The notes under the pieces: generated by a model
What the model saw: only the letters and a program-made list of their open reading frames with translations
What the model was told of the DNA's origin: nothing
The model's database searches: none
Part shown: positions 100-30,303 of the stretch, piece after piece
Numbering within the stretch: position 1 is the stretch's first letter
Layout of the letters: every line of letters begins with the position of its first letter
Program-made: the position numbers and the translations under genes
NCBI GenBank assembly: GCA_016189945.1
Contig: JACPRN010000173.1
Span: 1 to 37,240, forward strand
Source: Betaproteobacteria bacterium
GTDB taxonomy: Bacteria > Pseudomonadota > Gammaproteobacteria > Burkholderiales > SG8-39
Length of the DNA: 37,240 nucleotides
Direction of reading: 5' to 3'

Positions 100-345
100 A
101 TGGACGAAAACGAAATCCGCGCCCTTGTCCTGCAGGCCCTGGACGAAGTGGCGCCGGGCGTCGACAAATCGGGCCTGCGGCCCGAGCAGCCCCTGCGTGC
201 CCAGATAGACCTCGATTCCATGGATTGGCTCAACTGCCTGGCCGAACTGGGCGGCCGACTGAAAATCGAGATCCCGGAGGCCGACTACGGCAGGCTCGGC
301 ACCCTGGAGGCGCTCGTTTCCTATCTGAAGGAAAGACTTTCATGA
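100..345 (+). CDS. Acyl carrier protein
   Basis: 81 aa, acidic, phosphopantetheine attachment-like motif DLDSMDWLN. Confidence 0.85.
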   Translation: MDENEIRALVLQALDEVAPGVDKSGLRPEQPLRAQIDLDSMDWLNCLAELGGRLKIEIPEADYGRLGTLEALVSYLKERLS

Positions 346-917
346 ACGCGTCCGAGCCGCCGCGATTGCCGCCGGCGGGAAACGCGGACAAGCCGGTCTA
401 TCCCGCGGCGCTCGCGCGAAACCGCCGCCTGTTCGACGGGACGCCGGTTGCCATCCGGCCGATTCGGCCGGAAGATTCGGGCATGGAGCAGGAATTCGTG
501 CGCCATCTTTCGGAGGACTCGCGCTATTTCCGCTTTCTCGGCAGCATGCGCGAGCTGCCGCCGAAGAAACTCAAGTACTTCACCGAAATCGATTACGACC
601 TGCACATGGCCTTTGTCGCGGTGGTGCTGCGCGAGGGCAAGGAAGTGGAGATCGGCGTTGCGCGCTATGTCGGCGGCGCGCAGCGCGACAAGTGCGAGTT
701 CGCCGTGGCCGTGGACGACGACTGGCAGGGGACCGGCGTCGCGGGGCTGCTGATGGCCTCGCTCATGGATGCGGCGCGCGAGCGCGGATTCCGCACCATG
801 GAGGGCCTCGTGCTGCGGAGCAACCTCAAGATGCTGAAATTCGCGAAGCAGCTCGGGTTCAAGCTCCGCCCGAGCGAGGACGACGCCGGAACCGTGGTCG
901 TGGCGCGGCCGCTATAA
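342..917 (+). CDS. GNAT family N-acetyltransferase
   Basis: ATG at 342 overlaps ACP stop (ATGA); GNAT-like core CEFAVAVDDDWQGTGVAGLLMASLMDAARERGFRTMEGLVLRSNLKMLKFAKQLGF. Confidence 0.85.
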   Translation: MNASEPPRLPPAGNADKPVYPAALARNRRLFDGTPVAIRPIRPEDSGMEQEFVRHLSEDSRYFRFLGSMRELPPKKLKYFTEIDYDLHMAFVAVVLREGKEVEIGVARYVGGAQRDKCEFAVAVDDDWQGTGVAGLLMASLMDAARERGFRTMEGLVLRSNLKMLKFAKQLGFKLRPSEDDAGTVVVARPL

Positions 918-1085
918 GGCGTTTCGCGCCGGAAGGGGGGAGGGCAGCCGTATCGAGCGCTCGCCGCAGAGCACGCAAGTGCCGCGAATGGCGGCGGTTT
1001 CGCGCGCGACGCCGTCTCGAATCGCCTGTGCCATGTCGCCCAGCTCGTCTGCGAGCGCGCCCACCAGATCGTCAAGCTCTCGCAT
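912..1085 (-). CDS. Small hypothetical protein (57 aa)
   Basis: MRELDDLVGALADELGDMAQAIRDGVARETAAIRGTCVLCGERSIRLPSPLPARNAL; ATG abuts the PRTase stop (TGAATG); below the ORF-track size cutoff. Confidence 0.55.
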   Translation of the reverse strand: MRELDDLVGALADELGDMAQAIRDGVARETAAIRGTCVLCGERSIRLPSPLPARNAL

Positions 1086-1730
1086 TCACGCGCTGCGCGC
1101 GAGCTGAAAATCGCGCAGCAGCCGCACCACCTCGTCGTCTTCGATCTGGCGGAAGTCATCGTAGAATTGGCCCACCGCCGCGAAATACCTGGGCGCAAGC
1201 AGGCATTCGACGTGGGCGCAGAGCGGCCGGAACCGCTCGAGCGCCTCCGGCGGCGCAACGGGAACCGCGACGATGCTTTCGCGCGGCTTCAGGGCATTGA
1301 GAACGTGCAACGCGGCGAGCATGGTCGAACCGGTGGCGATGCCGTCGTCGGTGACGATGACCGAGCGTCCGGCCACGGGCGAGGGCGGTTTTACTGCGCG
1401 GAAAAGCCTGCGGCGACGCTCGATCTCGGCCATCTGGTTCTCCCGCTCCATGCGGACATAGTCGTCGGTCGTCCCCGGAATTTCCCGCGCGAACGAATTG
1501 AGATACACCTCGCCATCCTCTCCGATCGCCCCGATCGCGAGTTCCGGCTGATGCGGCGCCCGCAGCTTGCGCGAGAGAACGACATCGAGCTCGGCGCCGA
1601 GTTCCCGGGCGAGCACGGCGGCGGTCACGACGCCGCCCCGAGGAATTCCAAGAACCAGCGGGTCTGTCAGCGCGCGGGACTTCAGCCGCTGCGCGAGTTG
1701 CAGTGCCGCGTCTTCACGATCCCGGAACAT
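1086..1730 (-). CDS. Phosphoribosyltransferase domain protein
   Basis: GIPRGGVVTAAVLARELGAELDVVLSRKLRAPHQPELAIGAIGEDG and PRPP loop-like VIVTDDGIATGSTMLAAL. Confidence 0.9.
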   Translation of the reverse strand: MFRDREDAALQLAQRLKSRALTDPLVLGIPRGGVVTAAVLARELGAELDVVLSRKLRAPHQPELAIGAIGEDGEVYLNSFAREIPGTTDDYVRMERENQMAEIERRRRLFRAVKPPSPVAGRSVIVTDDGIATGSTMLAALHVLNALKPRESIVAVPVAPPEALERFRPLCAHVECLLAPRYFAAVGQFYDDFRQIEDDEVVRLLRDFQLARSA

Positions 1731-1733
1731 GGA

Positions 1734-2651
1734 TCACCTCGGCTCGAGAAGTCCCAGACCCGCTATCCGCGCGAGAGCCTGCGCGAACAGCGGCGCGACC
1801 GGTACTATCTGTACGCGCGGGTCGGGCGCGGTCGGAACGCTGTCGGTCGCCACGACCTTGCCCACCGCCGAAGAGCAAATGCGCTCCACTGCTCCGGGCG
1901 CCATGACGGCATGAACAAAGACTGCGTGGACCTCCCTGGCGCCCGCGGCGAGCAATGCCTGCGCCGCCGCTGCGATCGTGCCGCCCGTGCTTGCCATGTC
2001 ATCGACGATTACGCAGGCTCGATCCCGCACCTCGCCCAAGACATGCAGCGTGGCCGCAACGTCGATCGCCGGACGGGTCTTCGCGACCACCGCCAGCGGC
2101 ACAGCCAGGGCCGCCGCATAGCGTTGCGCGCGTTTGACTCCACCGGCATCCGGAGACACGAGCGAAAGGTCGGACAATCTCCAGGCGCGAATCGTCGGCA
2201 GCATCAGTTCATCAGCCCGCAAATGGATGAGCGGCATTTCGAATGCGCTCTCCAGAGCCGGTGAATGCAGGTCGAGCGTCACGATCCGCTCGACCCCGGC
2301 ACAGCGCAGGACGCGTGCGGCAAGCTGCGCCGAGCGCGGTTCGCCGGGGTGGTTGCGAACGTCCTGGCGCGCGTAACCGAAATACGGGACCAATGCGCCG
2401 ACGCGCGCGGCGCCTGCGGCGCGGGCCGCGTCTGCCAGCAGGGCGAGCGTCATCAGGTGCCGGCTGGTCGGCGCCGAAGTGGGCTGCACGATGTAGACCT
2501 CGCGATCGCGCACGTCGGCTTCGATCCGGATCCGCGATTCGCCGTCGGCGAATGCCGAGATCTGAGCCGGCGCCAGCGTCGTGCCCGCGAGCTTTGCGAT
2601 GTCGTGCGCGAGCGCAGGGTGCGCGTCGCCGGCGATCAGTACGGGGACCAT
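1734..2651 (-). CDS. prs: Ribose-phosphate pyrophosphokinase (PRPP synthetase) family
   Basis: FADGESRIRIEADVRDREVYIVQ, VPYFGYARQDV, VTLDLHSPA, VSPDAGGVKRAQRYA, CVIVDDMASTGGTI. Confidence 0.9.
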   Translation of the reverse strand: MVPVLIAGDAHPALAHDIAKLAGTTLAPAQISAFADGESRIRIEADVRDREVYIVQPTSAPTSRHLMTLALLADAARAAGAARVGALVPYFGYARQDVRNHPGEPRSAQLAARVLRCAGVERIVTLDLHSPALESAFEMPLIHLRADELMLPTIRAWRLSDLSLVSPDAGGVKRAQRYAAALAVPLAVVAKTRPAIDVAATLHVLGEVRDRACVIVDDMASTGGTIAAAAQALLAAGAREVHAVFVHAVMAPGAVERICSSAVGKVVATDSVPTAPDPRVQIVPVAPLFAQALARIAGLGLLEPR

Positions 2652-2653
2652 CC

Positions 2654-2767
2654 TTAGGAGACCTTGCTCTCGCCGCCTGCGATGCGAATGTCACCGCGCA
2701 ATTGCCGCCCGTCGGCAGTTATGCTGACTTCGGAGGGGTGGGGCCGCACGACCGTGAGGGGAGCCAT
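2654..2767 (-). CDS. Small ORF (37 aa) leading the prs operon
   Basis: MAPLTVVRPHPSEVSITADGRQLRGDIRIAGGESKVS; strong SD GCAGGAGCATCCG-ATG; stop TAA lies 2 nt before the prs ATG. Confidence 0.55.
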   Translation of the reverse strand: MAPLTVVRPHPSEVSITADGRQLRGDIRIAGGESKVS

Positions 2768-2892: not shown

Positions 2893-4233
2893 TCACAAGC
2901 GCCCCGCGCGAGCGCGAAGCTGCTCCAGAAGCGAGCAGACCATGTTCGCGAGCGATGGGGCGGAACGATCCCTTGCCTCGACTTCAACGCGCGCTGCCGG
3001 AAGAGCAATCTGAAGTATCTGCGCCAGGTCGGCGCCGGTACCGAGCAACACGGCCTCGCACGGCACCCTGGCGATCGTCCGGCGCAAGTCCTCGCGCTGC
3101 TCGCGGCTGTAACCGAGGGCGGGCAAAACCGGGCCGAGGTGCGGATACTGCTCGTACGCCGCGGCGATCGACCCGAGCGCATGCGCTCTCGGGTCGACGA
3201 GCGACGCCCCCAGGAGCCTCGCCGCGCGCGCCCCGCCTGCTTCGGCCATGCGGCCGTGGGTTACCGACGGACCGTCCTCGATCACCAGCACCTTGCGGCC
3301 GCGGACGAGCTGGGGGCGGTCAACTCGTTCCTCCAGCGCCATCATCGCGACCTGAGCTTGCGGGTTGAGCTTGCGTGCGGCGCGCAGCGTGGCATCGACG
3401 TTCGCGGCCCCGGCGGCGTTCACTTTGCTGATGACCAGGACATCGGCCGCGCGCACATTGGCTTCCCCCGGAAAATAGCCCTCCTCCTCCCCGGGCCGCA
3501 GCGGGTCCAGGACGGTGACGGTCACATCCGGTTTGAAGAACGCCATGTCGTTGTTGCCGCCGTCCCACAGGATCACGTCCCCTTCGGCGCTCGCGCGTTC
3601 CAGGACCGCCGAGTAATCGACGCCAGCATAGACGGCGGCGCCGTTGTCGACATGCGGCTGGTACTCCTCCATTTCCTCGATGCTCAAGTCCGCGCCGACG
3701 ATGTCGGCGCTCGTCCGATAACGCTCCACGCCGCGATCGAGCGGGCCGTAGGGCATCGGATGGCGCACCACAACGGGCTTCGCGCCCGCCGCCCTCAGGG
3801 CGCTGAACAAATAGCGGCTGATGGTGCTCTTGCCCGCGCCGGTGCGCGCCGCAACGACCGCAACCACTGGCAAACCCGCTCGAAGCATGGTATCGCCCGG
3901 TCCGAGCAGCGCGAACGAGGCACCGTTGGCAAAGGCAATCGACGCGAGGTGCATGACGTGACTGTGGGTGACGTCGCTGTAGCAGAAGACCACGTCGTCG
4001 GCCTGGTGCTCGCGGATCAGCCGCGCAAGTTCCGTTTCGGCGAAGATGGGTATGCCTTGCGGATAGAGAGCACCGCAGAGCGATGCGGGATAAGTCCGGT
4101 TCGCGATGTTGGGTATCTGCGCGGCGGTAAACGCGACCACGCGATACTGCGCTGCGCCGCGAAAGAACACGTTGAAGTTGTGGAAATCACGTCCCGCCGC
4201 CCCCAGGATAATGACTTTGCGCACGGCGGCCAT
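2893..4233 (-). CDS. Cyclic 2,3-diphosphoglycerate synthase-like P-loop protein
   Basis: MAAVRKVIILGAAGRDFHNFNVFFRGAAQYRVVAFTAAQIPNIANRTYP; P-loop AARTGAGKST; ILWDGGNNDMAFFKPDVTVTVLDPLRPGEE. Confidence 0.75.
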   Translation of the reverse strand: MAAVRKVIILGAAGRDFHNFNVFFRGAAQYRVVAFTAAQIPNIANRTYPASLCGALYPQGIPIFAETELARLIREHQADDVVFCYSDVTHSHVMHLASIAFANGASFALLGPGDTMLRAGLPVVAVVAARTGAGKSTISRYLFSALRAAGAKPVVVRHPMPYGPLDRGVERYRTSADIVGADLSIEEMEEYQPHVDNGAAVYAGVDYSAVLERASAEGDVILWDGGNNDMAFFKPDVTVTVLDPLRPGEEEGYFPGEANVRAADVLVISKVNAAGAANVDATLRAARKLNPQAQVAMMALEERVDRPQLVRGRKVLVIEDGPSVTHGRMAEAGGARAARLLGASLVDPRAHALGSIAAAYEQYPHLGPVLPALGYSREQREDLRRTIARVPCEAVLLGTGADLAQILQIALPAARVEVEARDRSAPSLANMVCSLLEQLRARAGRL

Positions 4234-4242
4234 CGATCGCGC

Positions 4243-5394
4243 CTACGCGGGAGCGTGCCGTATCACCACCGTGTCGGGTCCGGGAAAGCCGTTGAACTGC
4301 GTCGCATAGCCGAGAGTGTAGGCGCCGGCATTGGGAAAACAGAGGTAATCGCCCTCGCCGAGGTCCAGCGGCAGCATTTTGTCCCGCTCGATGACGTCCA
4401 GGGAATCGCAAGTCGGTCCGGCCACGGTACAGGGTATTTCGGCGCCTTCGCGCTCGGTGCGCATGGCGTATTGCAGGCCCGCAATCGATTCCATCAGGCC
4501 ATGATAGACGCCGCTGTCAAGATACACCCAGCGCGTGCCGTGGCGCACCGCCGTGCCGATCACGCGGCTCACCAGCCAGGCGCAGTCGCTCACCAGGAAG
4601 CGGCCCGGTTCGGCCATGAGGCGGACTTGCGGCGGCAGATCGGCGACCGCGGCTTCGACAGTCACGCCGATCTTCTCGATGGAGGGGATCGGTTTCAGAT
4701 GGCGCACCGGGAATCCGCCGCCGATGTTGAGCAGCCGCGGATCCAGGCCCTGTTCGCGCATCAGGCCGAAAACCAGTTTGGCGTTTTCGATCCCGATGCG
4801 CCAGTTCTCGAGGTCGCGGCACTGCGAGCCGACGTGGAAGGCAACGCCTGCGACGTCGGCCCTCAGCCTGCGGGCCTCGCGAATGATGTCGGATGCCTCG
4901 GTCAGCGCCGCGCCGAACTTGCCGCTGAGCGGCCAGTCGCTGCCGATGTTCTGTGTCTCGATGCGCAGCACCAGCCGCGCGTCTTTCATGACGCCGGCGA
5001 TCTTGTGCAGTTCGTCGACGCTGTCGACGATGAACCAGCGCACACCGGCGCGCGCGGCGTATTCGATGTAGTCACGCGGCTTGATCGGGTTGTTGTAATG
5101 AATGGCCTGCGCGTGCACGCCGGCCCCGAGGACGGCGTCGAGTTCGGCGATCGAGGCGACCTCGAAGCCGATGTGCTCCTCGGCCATCAGATTCAGCACC
5201 GCAGGCTGCGAATTCGCCTTGACGGCGTAATACACCTGGACTCTCGGCATTGCCGCGCGAAAGCGCCGCAGCTTGTTGCGTATCAGCTCCGGATCGAGCA
5301 ACAGGAAGGGCGTTCTGCGCGCCCTGTCCTTGAGCGCTTGCCGCACCAGCGCGAAATCCAGCGCGACCTCCGGATAACCGTCGTCGGCCTGCAA
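4243..5394 (-). CDS. Fold-type III PLP-dependent decarboxylase (ODC/DAPDC family)
   Basis: YYAVKANSQPAVL (PLP Lys), HVGSQ, LNIGGGFPV, EPGRFLVSDC, GPTCDSLDVI; the track start is TTG, so the exact start is uncertain. Confidence 0.85.
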   Translation of the reverse strand: MQADDGYPEVALDFALVRQALKDRARRTPFLLLDPELIRNKLRRFRAAMPRVQVYYAVKANSQPAVLNLMAEEHIGFEVASIAELDAVLGAGVHAQAIHYNNPIKPRDYIEYAARAGVRWFIVDSVDELHKIAGVMKDARLVLRIETQNIGSDWPLSGKFGAALTEASDIIREARRLRADVAGVAFHVGSQCRDLENWRIGIENAKLVFGLMREQGLDPRLLNIGGGFPVRHLKPIPSIEKIGVTVEAAVADLPPQVRLMAEPGRFLVSDCAWLVSRVIGTAVRHGTRWVYLDSGVYHGLMESIAGLQYAMRTEREGAEIPCTVAGPTCDSLDVIERDKMLPLDLGEGDYLCFPNAGAYTLGYATQFNGFPGPDTVVIRHAPA

Positions 5395-5562: not shown

Positions 5563-5603
5563 ATCCTAGGCGCCGTTGAGGGTTTCATTTTGATTTGCAT
5601 CAA
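5563..5603 (-). promoter_or_regulatory. Putative class II FNR/ANR-type promoter of the decarboxylase/cpgS-like pair
   Basis: TTGATgcaaATCAA (5603-5590 on minus), 21 nt, TAGGAT (5568-5563). Confidence 0.7.
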
Positions 5604-9253: not shown

Positions 9254-9294
9254 AACTTACACCGTCGCAGCGGCGGCCTTTTGACCCGGATCAA
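9254..9294 (-). promoter_or_regulatory. Putative FNR/ANR-type promoter upstream of the Hsp70/DnaJ remnant
   Basis: Palindrome TTGACccggATCAA (+ strand 9281-9294); minus strand 21 nt then TAAGTT (9259-9254). Confidence 0.5.
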
Positions 9295-13986: not shown

Positions 13987-16125
13987 TCACGCGGCCAGAC
14001 CGAGGGCTCCTTCGAGTTCGGCAAGGGTGGCGCGCAGCGCTGCGAGCGCTTCGTCGATCTGCCCGCGCGAGATCACCAGGGGCGGCGCGAGGCGCACCAC
14101 GGTGTGGTGCGTGTCCTTGGAGAGCACGCCGCGCTCGAGCAGCGCCTCGCACACTTCGCGGGCGCTCGCCAGGGCGGGATCGAACTCCACGCCGATCAAC
14201 AGCCCCTTGCCGCGCACGGCGCGAACGAGCGGGCTCTTCAGCGCGCGCAGCTCGCGCAGAAGGTACTCGCCCAGTTCGGCGGCGCGCTCGACCAGCCCCT
14301 CGTCGATGAGCACTTCCAGCGCAGCGAGCCCCACCGCGCTGGCGAGGGGATTACCGCCGAAGGTGCTGCCGTGATCGCCGGGGGTGAAAACCTCCATGAG
14401 ATCGCGCCGGCCGAGGAACGCCGAAACCGGGAGCAATCCTCCGCCGAGCGCTTTGCCCAAGATGATGCCGTCGGGCTTGACCCCTTCATGTTCGCACGCG
14501 AACAGGCGGCCAGTGCGCCCGAGCCCGGTCTGCACCTCATCGCAGATGAGCAGTACGCCATAGTGGCGGCAGATCTCTGCGCAGGCCGCGAGGTAGCCCC
14601 GCGGCGGCACGATGATCCCGGCCTCGCCCTGGATCGGCTCGACCAGGAACGCGGCGGTGTTCGGCGTGATCGCGCGCTCAAGGGCGCGCGCGTCGCCGTA
14701 CGGAATGCGCACGAACCCGGCCGGGTAGGGGCCGAAGCCGTCGCGGTATTGCGCTTCCGAGGACATGGCGATGATCGCGGTCGAGCGGCCGTGGAAATTG
14801 CCCTCGCAGGCGATGATTTCCGCGCGGTCTGCCGCTATTGATTTGACCTTGTAGCCCCATTTGCGTGCCGCTTTGATCGCGGTTTCGACCGCCTCCAGAC
14901 CGGTATTGACCGGGAGCGCCAGGTCCTGGCCGCTCAGCTCACACAGCCGCTTGAGGAACAGCGGCAGCCGGTCGTTGTAGTAGGCGCGCGAGGTGACCGC
15001 CAGGCGCTTCGCCTGCGCGGTGAGCGCCTCGACGAGCCGCGGGTGACAGTGGCCGTGGCTCACCGCCGAATAGGCGCTCATCATGTCGAGATAGCGCCGG
15101 TCGCGCTCGTCCCACAGGACTGCGCCCTCGCCGCGCGCGAGCACGACCGGGAGCGGCTGGTAGTTGTGCGCACCGTGGCGCTCCTCCATCGCCATCAGCG
15201 AAGGTTCGCTCACCGGCGGCTGTTCGGCGAGAACGCCTTGGGCGAAGCCGATGGCGATTTCGGCCGTGGCCCCGCGGCGGTCGCGCTGCGGGTTGTACTC
15301 GGCGATTTCCAGCCCTGCCAGCGCGGGATTGCCGTGCAGCACCGAGACTGCGTCCAGAAGTTCGCCGGGTGCAATGCCGCCCGCGACCGGCGTGGAGACT
15401 CCCGGCGCCTCTTGCGGGTCGATGGCATCGAGGTCCAGCGTCACGCCAAATCCGGCCGTGCCGTCCTGGACCACGGCGAGCGCTTCGCGCAACGCCGCCG
15501 CCAGTCCGCGCTGCGCAACCTCGTGCTGGAAGACGATGCGCACGCCCAGCTTGCGCAGGAGCGCCTCCTCGCTCGGCTCGAAGCTCCTCACGCCGATCAG
15601 GCATATATGCCGCGGCGAAAGCCGGGCACCGTCCTCCAGATCGCTCAGTTCCGGCTCGCCCAAGCCGAGCAGGCACGCCAGGGGCATTCCGTGGAACGCT
15701 CCGCTCGGGGTGGTCTCCGGCGTGTGCGCGTCCATGTGCGCGTCGATCCAGATCAGTCCCAGCGGTCCGCGCTCGCGCAACGCCGCAGCCGCTCCGTTCC
15801 AGGTTCCGATGGCGCAGGAGTGGTCTCCGCCCACGACCAGGGGCAGCGCGCCCTGCGCCACGATGGCGCGCACGCGCTTTGCAACGCGCCGGCAAACGTC
15901 CTTCACCGCCTGCAGCGGCTGGTCATGCGCGGCTTCGGAAGGACGTATGGTCTCATCCCAACTCGCACGCAGCCCGCGCGCCTGCAGGCGCGAGAGGAGG
16001 CCGGCGTCGAGGAGCGCGTCCGGACCGCCGCTGCAGCGCCGATCCTGCGCGCCATCGCCGCAGGCCACGCCGACGATGGCGACCGCTCTGGCGAGCGGCG
16101 GGGTAACGAGACGAAGATCGCTCAT
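13987..16125 (-). CDS. Arginase::ornithine aminotransferase fusion protein
   Basis: N-half ureohydrolase motifs [47 protein letters not shown]-half class-III aminotransferase [49 protein letters not shown]; one uninterrupted 712-aa ORF. Confidence 0.88.
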
Positions 16126-16335
16126 CGCACCTCCTCCAAGTTGGCCGGGCGCACTCCGATCCCCGAGCGCAGCCCTGCTTCTGTGGCAGGAGTCTAGTGA
16201 GCGGGTTCCGCGAAAGCCGTGGGGCAAGACCCGCGATTCGCCGGGATGAATCCCGCAAGAGCGGGGAGGACCAAACAGTATTTCGCTACGCCAAATGAGC
16301 CGGAACCGGCGATGCTGTTTCTTGCCGTTATTCAA

Positions 16336-16381
16336 TCTCCACGTTTTGTGCGGTTGCTTGCAACCGCACAAAACGTGGAGA
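16336..16381. terminator. Long perfect hairpin (22-bp arms, 2-nt centre)
   Basis: TCTCCACGTTTTGTGCGGTTGC-TT-GCAACCGCACAAAACGTGGAGA; terminator role is inferred. Confidence 0.6.
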
Positions 16382-18197: not shown

Positions 18198-18238
18198 ACA
18201 TTAGCGGCGCGACGTGCGCGGCAATTGATCTATATCAA
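18198..18238 (-). promoter_or_regulatory. FNR/ANR-type box with spaced -10-like hexamer
   Basis: TTGATctatATCAA (18225-18238); minus strand 21 nt then TAATGT (18203-18198). Confidence 0.6.
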
Positions 18239-26808: not shown

Positions 26809-27210
26809 CTAGCCCGCTGTGGCCAGGAATTCGGCCAACCCCTTGTCCGCCACCATGATGTCGCGGTTCACCCAACTGTCCAGGATGACGAGCAGCGTCG
26901 TGAATTCCGCGGTAGCGCCTGCGTCGTAGGACGCCTTGAATGTGAGCACGTCCTTGAGAAACCTCTCGTGCATAGCCGTGTGCTCTTTGGCCTTCGGATA
27001 CCGGTGCAGGTCCATGAGCCGCTCTTCGATCGTGAAGTGCTTGCGCGTTTCTTCGACAAACTGCTCGAGCACGTTGCTGCAGAATTCCTTCGACTTCTTG
27101 CTTTCCATGCCATCGGCCAACTGATTGATCAGTTCGACCAGTTTCTCGTGGCCGTGATCCATATCGGCGTTCCCGGTCTTTTGCTTCTCACCCCAGTTGA
27201 TCCACTTCAT
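26809..27210 (-). CDS. Bacteriohemerythrin-like protein with altered ligand motif
   Basis: DMDHGHEKL, HFTIEERLM, HTAMHERF; final HI-type motif reads VNRDIMVAD. Confidence 0.85.
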   Translation of the reverse strand: MKWINWGEKQKTGNADMDHGHEKLVELINQLADGMESKKSKEFCSNVLEQFVEETRKHFTIEERLMDLHRYPKAKEHTAMHERFLKDVLTFKASYDAGATAEFTTLLVILDSWVNRDIMVADKGLAEFLATAG

Positions 27211-29868: not shown

Positions 29869-30303
29869 CTAGCCCAGGATTTCCAGAATATGCTCGCGCC
29901 GGCGCACCTCGGCGACAAAATCCTCGAGCTCCGGACCCAGCACATCGCGGGCTGAAATCATGCCGACCGGTTTCCCGTTCCTGACCACCGGCACATGCCG
30001 GAATCCTCCCTCGTACATCATGTGCAGAGCGTGGCCGAATTGCTTGTTCGGGTCGATGGTTTGCGGGTTGCGCGTCATGACCTCGGTGAGCTGCGTGGAC
30101 CTCGGATCGCGTCCCTGGGCGATGACGCGGGTGAGCGCGTCGCGCTCGGTGAAGATCCCCACCAGACGGCCGCGCTCGGTGACCACGATGGCGCCGAAAT
30201 CGCTTTTTTTCATCAGGTCGGCTGCTTCGCTGACGGTAAGCTGCGCCGAGCACGCAAGGATCGTCTGCTTTTCGATGATGCTGCTGATCAGTCGCTGGGG
30301 CAT
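29869..30303 (-). CDS. Tandem CBS domain protein
   Basis: TVSEAADLMKKSDFGAIVVTERGRLVGIFTERDALTRVI; HALHMMYEGGFRHVPVVRNGKPVGMISARDVL. Confidence 0.92.
   Translation of the reverse strand: MPQRLISSIIEKQTILACSAQLTVSEAADLMKKSDFGAIVVTERGRLVGIFTERDALTRVIAQGRDPRSTQLTEVMTRNPQTIDPNKQFGHALHMMYEGGFRHVPVVRNGKPVGMISARDVLGPELEDFVAEVRRREHILEILG

Follow-up and report, generated by a model that had tools for sequence, protein, structure and literature searches.

Two short open reading frames, of 37 and 57 amino acids, flank a gene for a PRPP synthetase (prs) paralogue and a phosphoribosyltransferase (PRTase, or PRT) gene in a 37,240-nucleotide stretch of DNA (hereafter the window) from a draft betaproteobacterial genome (3.55 Mb, 328 contigs, 80% complete). 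An earlier note on this DNA had taken them to be two undescribed small proteins belonging to a dedicated low-oxygen PRPP pathway, which raises the question of what these short ORFs are and what the unit that contains them may do. Comparison with related loci points to a decayed unit, originally composed of a dienelactone-hydrolase-family (DLH) gene, prs, the PRTase gene and a gene for a CBS-domain protein, lying behind an FNR/CRP-type box, in which both short ORFs are gene relics; we assign this reading a probability of about 0.88.

Organization of the locus

The four ORFs were found on the minus strand where the earlier note had placed them (Table 1), and their packing is as tight as had been claimed: the TAA of the 37-aa ORF (sORF37) precedes the prs ATG by 2 nt, prs and the PRTase gene are 3 nt apart, and the PRTase TGA abuts the ATG of the 57-aa ORF (sORF57) as TGAATG. 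Since 4.5 kb of GC-rich DNA at the locus holds 53 ORFs of 25 aa or more, short ORFs being common there by chance, a length of 37 or 57 aa is uninformative by itself; as neither sORF37 nor sORF57 belongs to any family in Pfam or NCBIfam, their identity is decidable only through relatives.

Table 1. Features of the locus and the intact partner genes in related loci.
Feature	Position	Strand	Length	Remarks
Acyl-carrier-protein-like ORF	100..345	plus		orthologue (66%) at the corresponding position in L033
GNAT acetyltransferase	342..917	plus		convergent, downstream; L033 has an orthologue (82%) at the corresponding position
sORF57	912..1085	minus	57 aa
PRTase	1086..1730	minus	214 aa	intact
prs paralogue	1734..2651	minus	305 aa	intact
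sORF37	2654..2767	minus	37 aa
FNR/CRP-type box TTGACTTGAGTCAA	2865-2878			palindromic TTGAY-N4-RTCAA; centred ~104 nt before the sORF37 ATG
P-loop NTPase	2893..4233	minus	446 aa	weak cobW/P-loop matches; upstream neighbour in L033 too (77% identity)
PLP-dependent ornithine/diaminopimelate-decarboxylase family protein	4243..5394	minus		PF02784, 1.5e-58; 77% identity in L033
Intact DLH gene	L033:6394-7077 and L035:6396-7079		227 aa	just upstream of prs; aligned to sORF37
Intact CBS protein gene	L035:8720-9241		173 aa	two CBS domains; directly after PRT; PF00571, 4.2e-20

The closest PRTase orthologues lie in three loci, namely L033 (genome G370, same genus), L034 and L035 (genome G385, same family). 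L033 is collinear with the window: in both, the decarboxylase-family gene opens the gene run, followed in L033 by the P-loop NTPase, DLH, prs and PRT genes and then by the convergent GNAT and acyl-carrier-protein-like genes. The P-loop NTPase, for which a PDB search returned no match, presumably resembles proteins annotated as cyclic 2,3-diphosphoglycerate synthetase. Two further genomes of the same genus, G369 and G371, contain neither this PRTase nor the P-loop neighbour, and are therefore of no use for dating the deletions described below. Elsewhere in the window (13987-16371, minus strand), a single 794-aa frame, judged by eye to be arginase-like and then ornithine-aminotransferase-like, may be a fusion or may result from reading through two neighbouring genes.

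The short ORF upstream of prs

The slot occupied by sORF37 holds an intact DLH gene in both L033 and L035. The L033 product is an alpha/beta hydrolase matching the Pfam DLH family (2.5e-06) and the dienelactone-hydrolase-family structure PDB 2o2g (1.5e-75), whereas the window keeps only the two ends of the corresponding gene. Indeed, sORF37 (MAPLTVVRPHPSEVSITADGRQLRGDIRIAGGESKVS) aligns with the start of the hydrolase from L035 (MQPSPRVQVSIPADGRQLEGELIVPGGASGV; 52% identity over 31 aa) and from L033 (PDHSEVSIPVGGIRLGGNLHIPSG), an N-terminal match that was reached in 0 of 2000 shuffles for each of the two proteins. Its C-terminus matches that of the L033 hydrolase (GGESKV versus GGESKI; 0 of 5000 shuffles), which ends in PGGESKIR with prs starting immediately after; this second match is absent from the L035 DLH. 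Because the similarity is short and the general DLH profile recognizes sORF37 weakly (E 0.0096), the case relies on the position of the ORF and on the two nearest relatives.

On these alignments, sORF37 is read as the first ~30 codons of a DLH gene joined to its last ~7 codons, with ~190 codons between them deleted in frame and the catalytic core thereby removed; the Nucleophile-Asp-His core of a functional dienelactone hydrolase is missing from it. GGCGG-type sequence is found at both break points, which suggests recombination between short repeats as the probable route of the deletion. A separate DLH relic is present at L034:718-888, where the 3' end of the gene, interrupted by an in-frame stop, adjoins a frame that is biotin-carboxylase-like. 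This copy is truncated at its 5' end and lies upstream of intact prs and PRT genes; its lesion is independent, and the hydrolase seems to have been lost repeatedly in the group.

The short ORF downstream of the PRTase gene

A CBS gene lies directly 3' of PRT in both L035 and L034, and the alignments identify sORF57 as the C-terminal remnant of such a CBS-domain-pair protein, covering the last helix of the second CBS domain and the RETAAIRxxCxLCGERSxRLP tail. Over 41 aa, sORF57 and the end of the L035 protein share 68% identity, with an E-value of 1.2e-11 in a whole-genome search, and the N-terminal residues of sORF57 correspond to the last part of the second CBS domain of the L034 copy (LDDLVGALADELGDMAQAI versus IDDILGVLSEELDGIVRAI; 0 of 2000 shuffles). 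It yields no match to the complete CBS motif (PF00571), all of the gene but its C-terminal end having presumably been lost. Comparison of sORF57 with another CBS protein of its own genome gave a chance-level score (578 of 2000 shuffles). No CBS remnant is found between PRT and the GNAT gene in L033, so the CBS gene has been lost to differing extents within the group. From the intact DLH and CBS genes in the corresponding slots of the relatives, the ancestral unit can be deduced to have been DLH-prs-PRT-CBS.

The description of the short ORFs as two undescribed small proteins is therefore replaced by one internally deleted DLH gene and one truncated CBS gene; the relatives carry the full-length genes beside prs and PRT, and the short forms occur in none of those examined, in that sense the kind of non-conservation that the earlier note had named as refuting its reading. 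The latter result also weighs against the very unlikely case that one or both ORFs were kept as functional short products, a translation-coupling leader ORF in the case of sORF37 or a small CxxC protein in that of sORF57. In favour of such roles, sORF37 preserves the DLH frame, start and ribosome site, with its stop 2 nt from the prs ATG, and the tail of sORF57 is well conserved relative to the L035 CBS protein. The parts of DLH and CBS that bear their functions are gone, however, and the conservation may stem from selection on the ancestor. The dN/dS values against relatives (0.26 for the sORF37 stretch and 0.33 for that of sORF57) are not clearly neutral, and most of the divergence of both stretches may predate the deletions. 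As relics, the two ORFs would play at most an incidental part in translation coupling.

The deletions could also have arisen through misassembly of a metagenome-derived draft contig, in which case the organism itself would have full-length DLH and CBS genes. The fragmented and incomplete state of the assembly, the location of both lesions inside one small unit and the short repeats of GGCGG type where the DLH ends are joined, which are typical misassembly points, all speak for this explanation. Nevertheless, sORF37 has diverged from both relatives and is no chimera of them, the DLH lesion in L034 is a different one, and the absence of the CBS gene from L033 as well indicates that partner loss is common in the group; an assembly artefact is thus considered improbable. 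With the short ORFs read as gene relics, two spurious 'novel small proteins' disappear, and the locus illustrates how internal deletions can create convincing small ORFs within tight operons.

The PRPP synthetase and the phosphoribosyltransferase

The product of prs is a ribose-phosphate diphosphokinase (TIGR01251, 2.8e-86, 289 bits against a cut-off of 113) with full-length PF13793 (Pribosyltran_N, 2.2e-34) and PF00156 (Pribosyltran, 2.5e-16) domains and a match to PDB 3dah (1.5e-70). Alignment with the B. subtilis Prs revealed that it keeps KTRP (the catalytic-loop lysine and the arginine that follows), LDLH (the catalytic histidine stretch) and DDMASTGGT (the ribose-5-phosphate loop), and that it differs at several other flexible-loop residues. 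The earlier designation as a paralogue is borne out by a second, canonical prs elsewhere in the genome (G000:C27), to which it is 39% identical.

The PRTase is of the TT1426 type (Pribosyltran, 9.4e-16). It matches the hypothetical phosphoribosyltransferase TT1426 from Thermus (PDB 1wd5) over its full length (residues 2-207, E 2.8e-46) and has an intact PRPP motif (VIVTDDGIATGST; DDGxATGxS/T), and its orthologues in L033, L034 and L035 are 80, 78 and 78% identical, respectively. The same genome encodes a second TT1426-type PRTase (G000:C206:552-1169, L168), which is 38% identical and carries the motif DDGIAAGST. With dN/dS values against L033 of ~0.22 for prs and ~0.14 for the PRTase gene, both genes are under purifying selection and, being intact and conserved, are probably still in use.

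Ordinary salvage of purines or pyrimidines would need a Prs and a PRTase together, and the PRPP motif is that of type-I PRTases. The PRTase nevertheless belongs to an uncharacterized type and falls far under every curated salvage cut-off (apt, hpt, upp, pyrR and xpt; best score 31.5 bits against at least 114), its neighbours are DLH and CBS genes rather than transporters or nucleosidases, and a search of the genome for an AMP-phosphorylase-type gene (TIGR02645) gave a sub-threshold match only, making a salvage role highly improbable. In the decayed unit, Prs would use ribose 5-phosphate and ATP to form PRPP, which the neighbouring PRTase would spend on a putative acceptor, as suggested by family membership and intact motifs. 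A local supply of PRPP would thus most likely feed phosphoribosylation, with a predicted hydrolase step after it in the relatives, whose units also contain the alpha/beta hydrolase and the CBS-domain protein.

The FNR/CRP-type box

The FNR/CRP-type box is real: the pattern TTGAYNNNNRTCAA occurs at 38 sites in the 3.55-Mb genome, against one site for the reversed control pattern. Genes close downstream of the other boxes include those for universal stress proteins (USPs), an S30AE hibernation factor, CBS proteins and a hemerythrin, as well as for a P-type ATPase and for a regulator with a cyclic-nucleotide-binding domain. A box with one mismatch (TTGACGAAAGTCAC) is found at L035:6313-6326, ~70 nt upstream of DLH; the box is not kept before DLH in L033, where there is no room for it. 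FNR-type control of the unit at low oxygen is likely on this evidence, and prs and the PRTase would most likely be used under oxygen limitation.

The compact prs-PRT unit behind such a box thus stands as originally described, as does its link to hypoxia-type genes, through the CBS and DLH neighbours and through the USPs, hemerythrin and S30AE factor of the box regulon, and a dedicated low-oxygen PRPP unit formed by prs and PRT is plausible. Four of the 38 boxes fall within the window, which represents about 1% of the genome; those other than the box at the locus are at 5590-5603, 9281-9294 and 18225-18238. The window also contains, on the minus strand, two typical low-oxygen stress genes, encoding a CBS-pair protein (29872-30261; PF00571, 1.2e-25) and a hemerythrin (26812-27198; 9e-13).

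Relation to known systems

The M. tuberculosis protein Rv0571c, which we take to be a PRT-DLH fusion, resembles the present system, in a comparison made by annotation, in tying a PRTase to hypoxia regulation and in the presumed pairing of PRT with DLH. It differs in that the genes here are separate and include a prs paralogue, the box is of the FNR/CRP type and not a DosR motif (PMC2275270), and the DLH has been lost. Rv0571c is listed in the DosR regulon as a 'putative phosphoribosyltransferase, function not yet characterized' (PMC5309233), so that the likeness to hypoxia-regulon PRTases drawn in the earlier note holds at the level of annotation.

The lxa (low-oxygen-activated) locus of Burkholderia, of about 50 genes (PMC4981469, PMC9104464), is similar by description in that it, too, is a betaproteobacterial set of low-oxygen stress genes, among whose products are USPs, a phosphoribosyltransferase and regulators of the CRP family, but it is a large locus and its PRTase is annotated as a nicotinate PRTase. 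A literature search combining DLH, PRTase and hypoxia found nothing direct. The present comparison brings out a recurrent DLH-prs-PRT(-CBS) neighbourhood, the PRTase of which is akin in type to an uncharacterized hypoxia-regulon protein.

Breadth of the gene neighbourhood

Neighbour clustering over 80 loci was dominated by spurious antisense ORFs, and targeted tblastn was used instead. Among 117 PRTase loci, DLH lies within 1.5 kb of the PRTase gene in at least 49, on the same strand in at least 41 and as an in-frame fusion in at least four, while prs and CBS are found within 2 kb in at least ten and at least 14 loci, respectively; these counts are lower bounds, as many flanks are short and only tblastn matches with E < 1e-3 were counted. 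The main association is that of PRT with DLH, prs being an occasional partner.

A broader proposal would be a dedicated, oxygen-responsive pathway in which Prs and a TT1426-type PRTase place ribose 5-phosphate on an acceptor, with DLH acting at a later step in the relatives; such a pathway, which would be widespread (Betaproteobacteria, Planctomycetes and other groups) and so far undescribed in biochemical terms, is offered tentatively and is, in our judgement, rather doubtful. The contig that carries L034 (L034:1-10093) is labelled Terriglobia, although its PRT and prs are 78 and 70% identical, respectively, to those of this betaproteobacterium; it is either misbinned or the product of a recent transfer.
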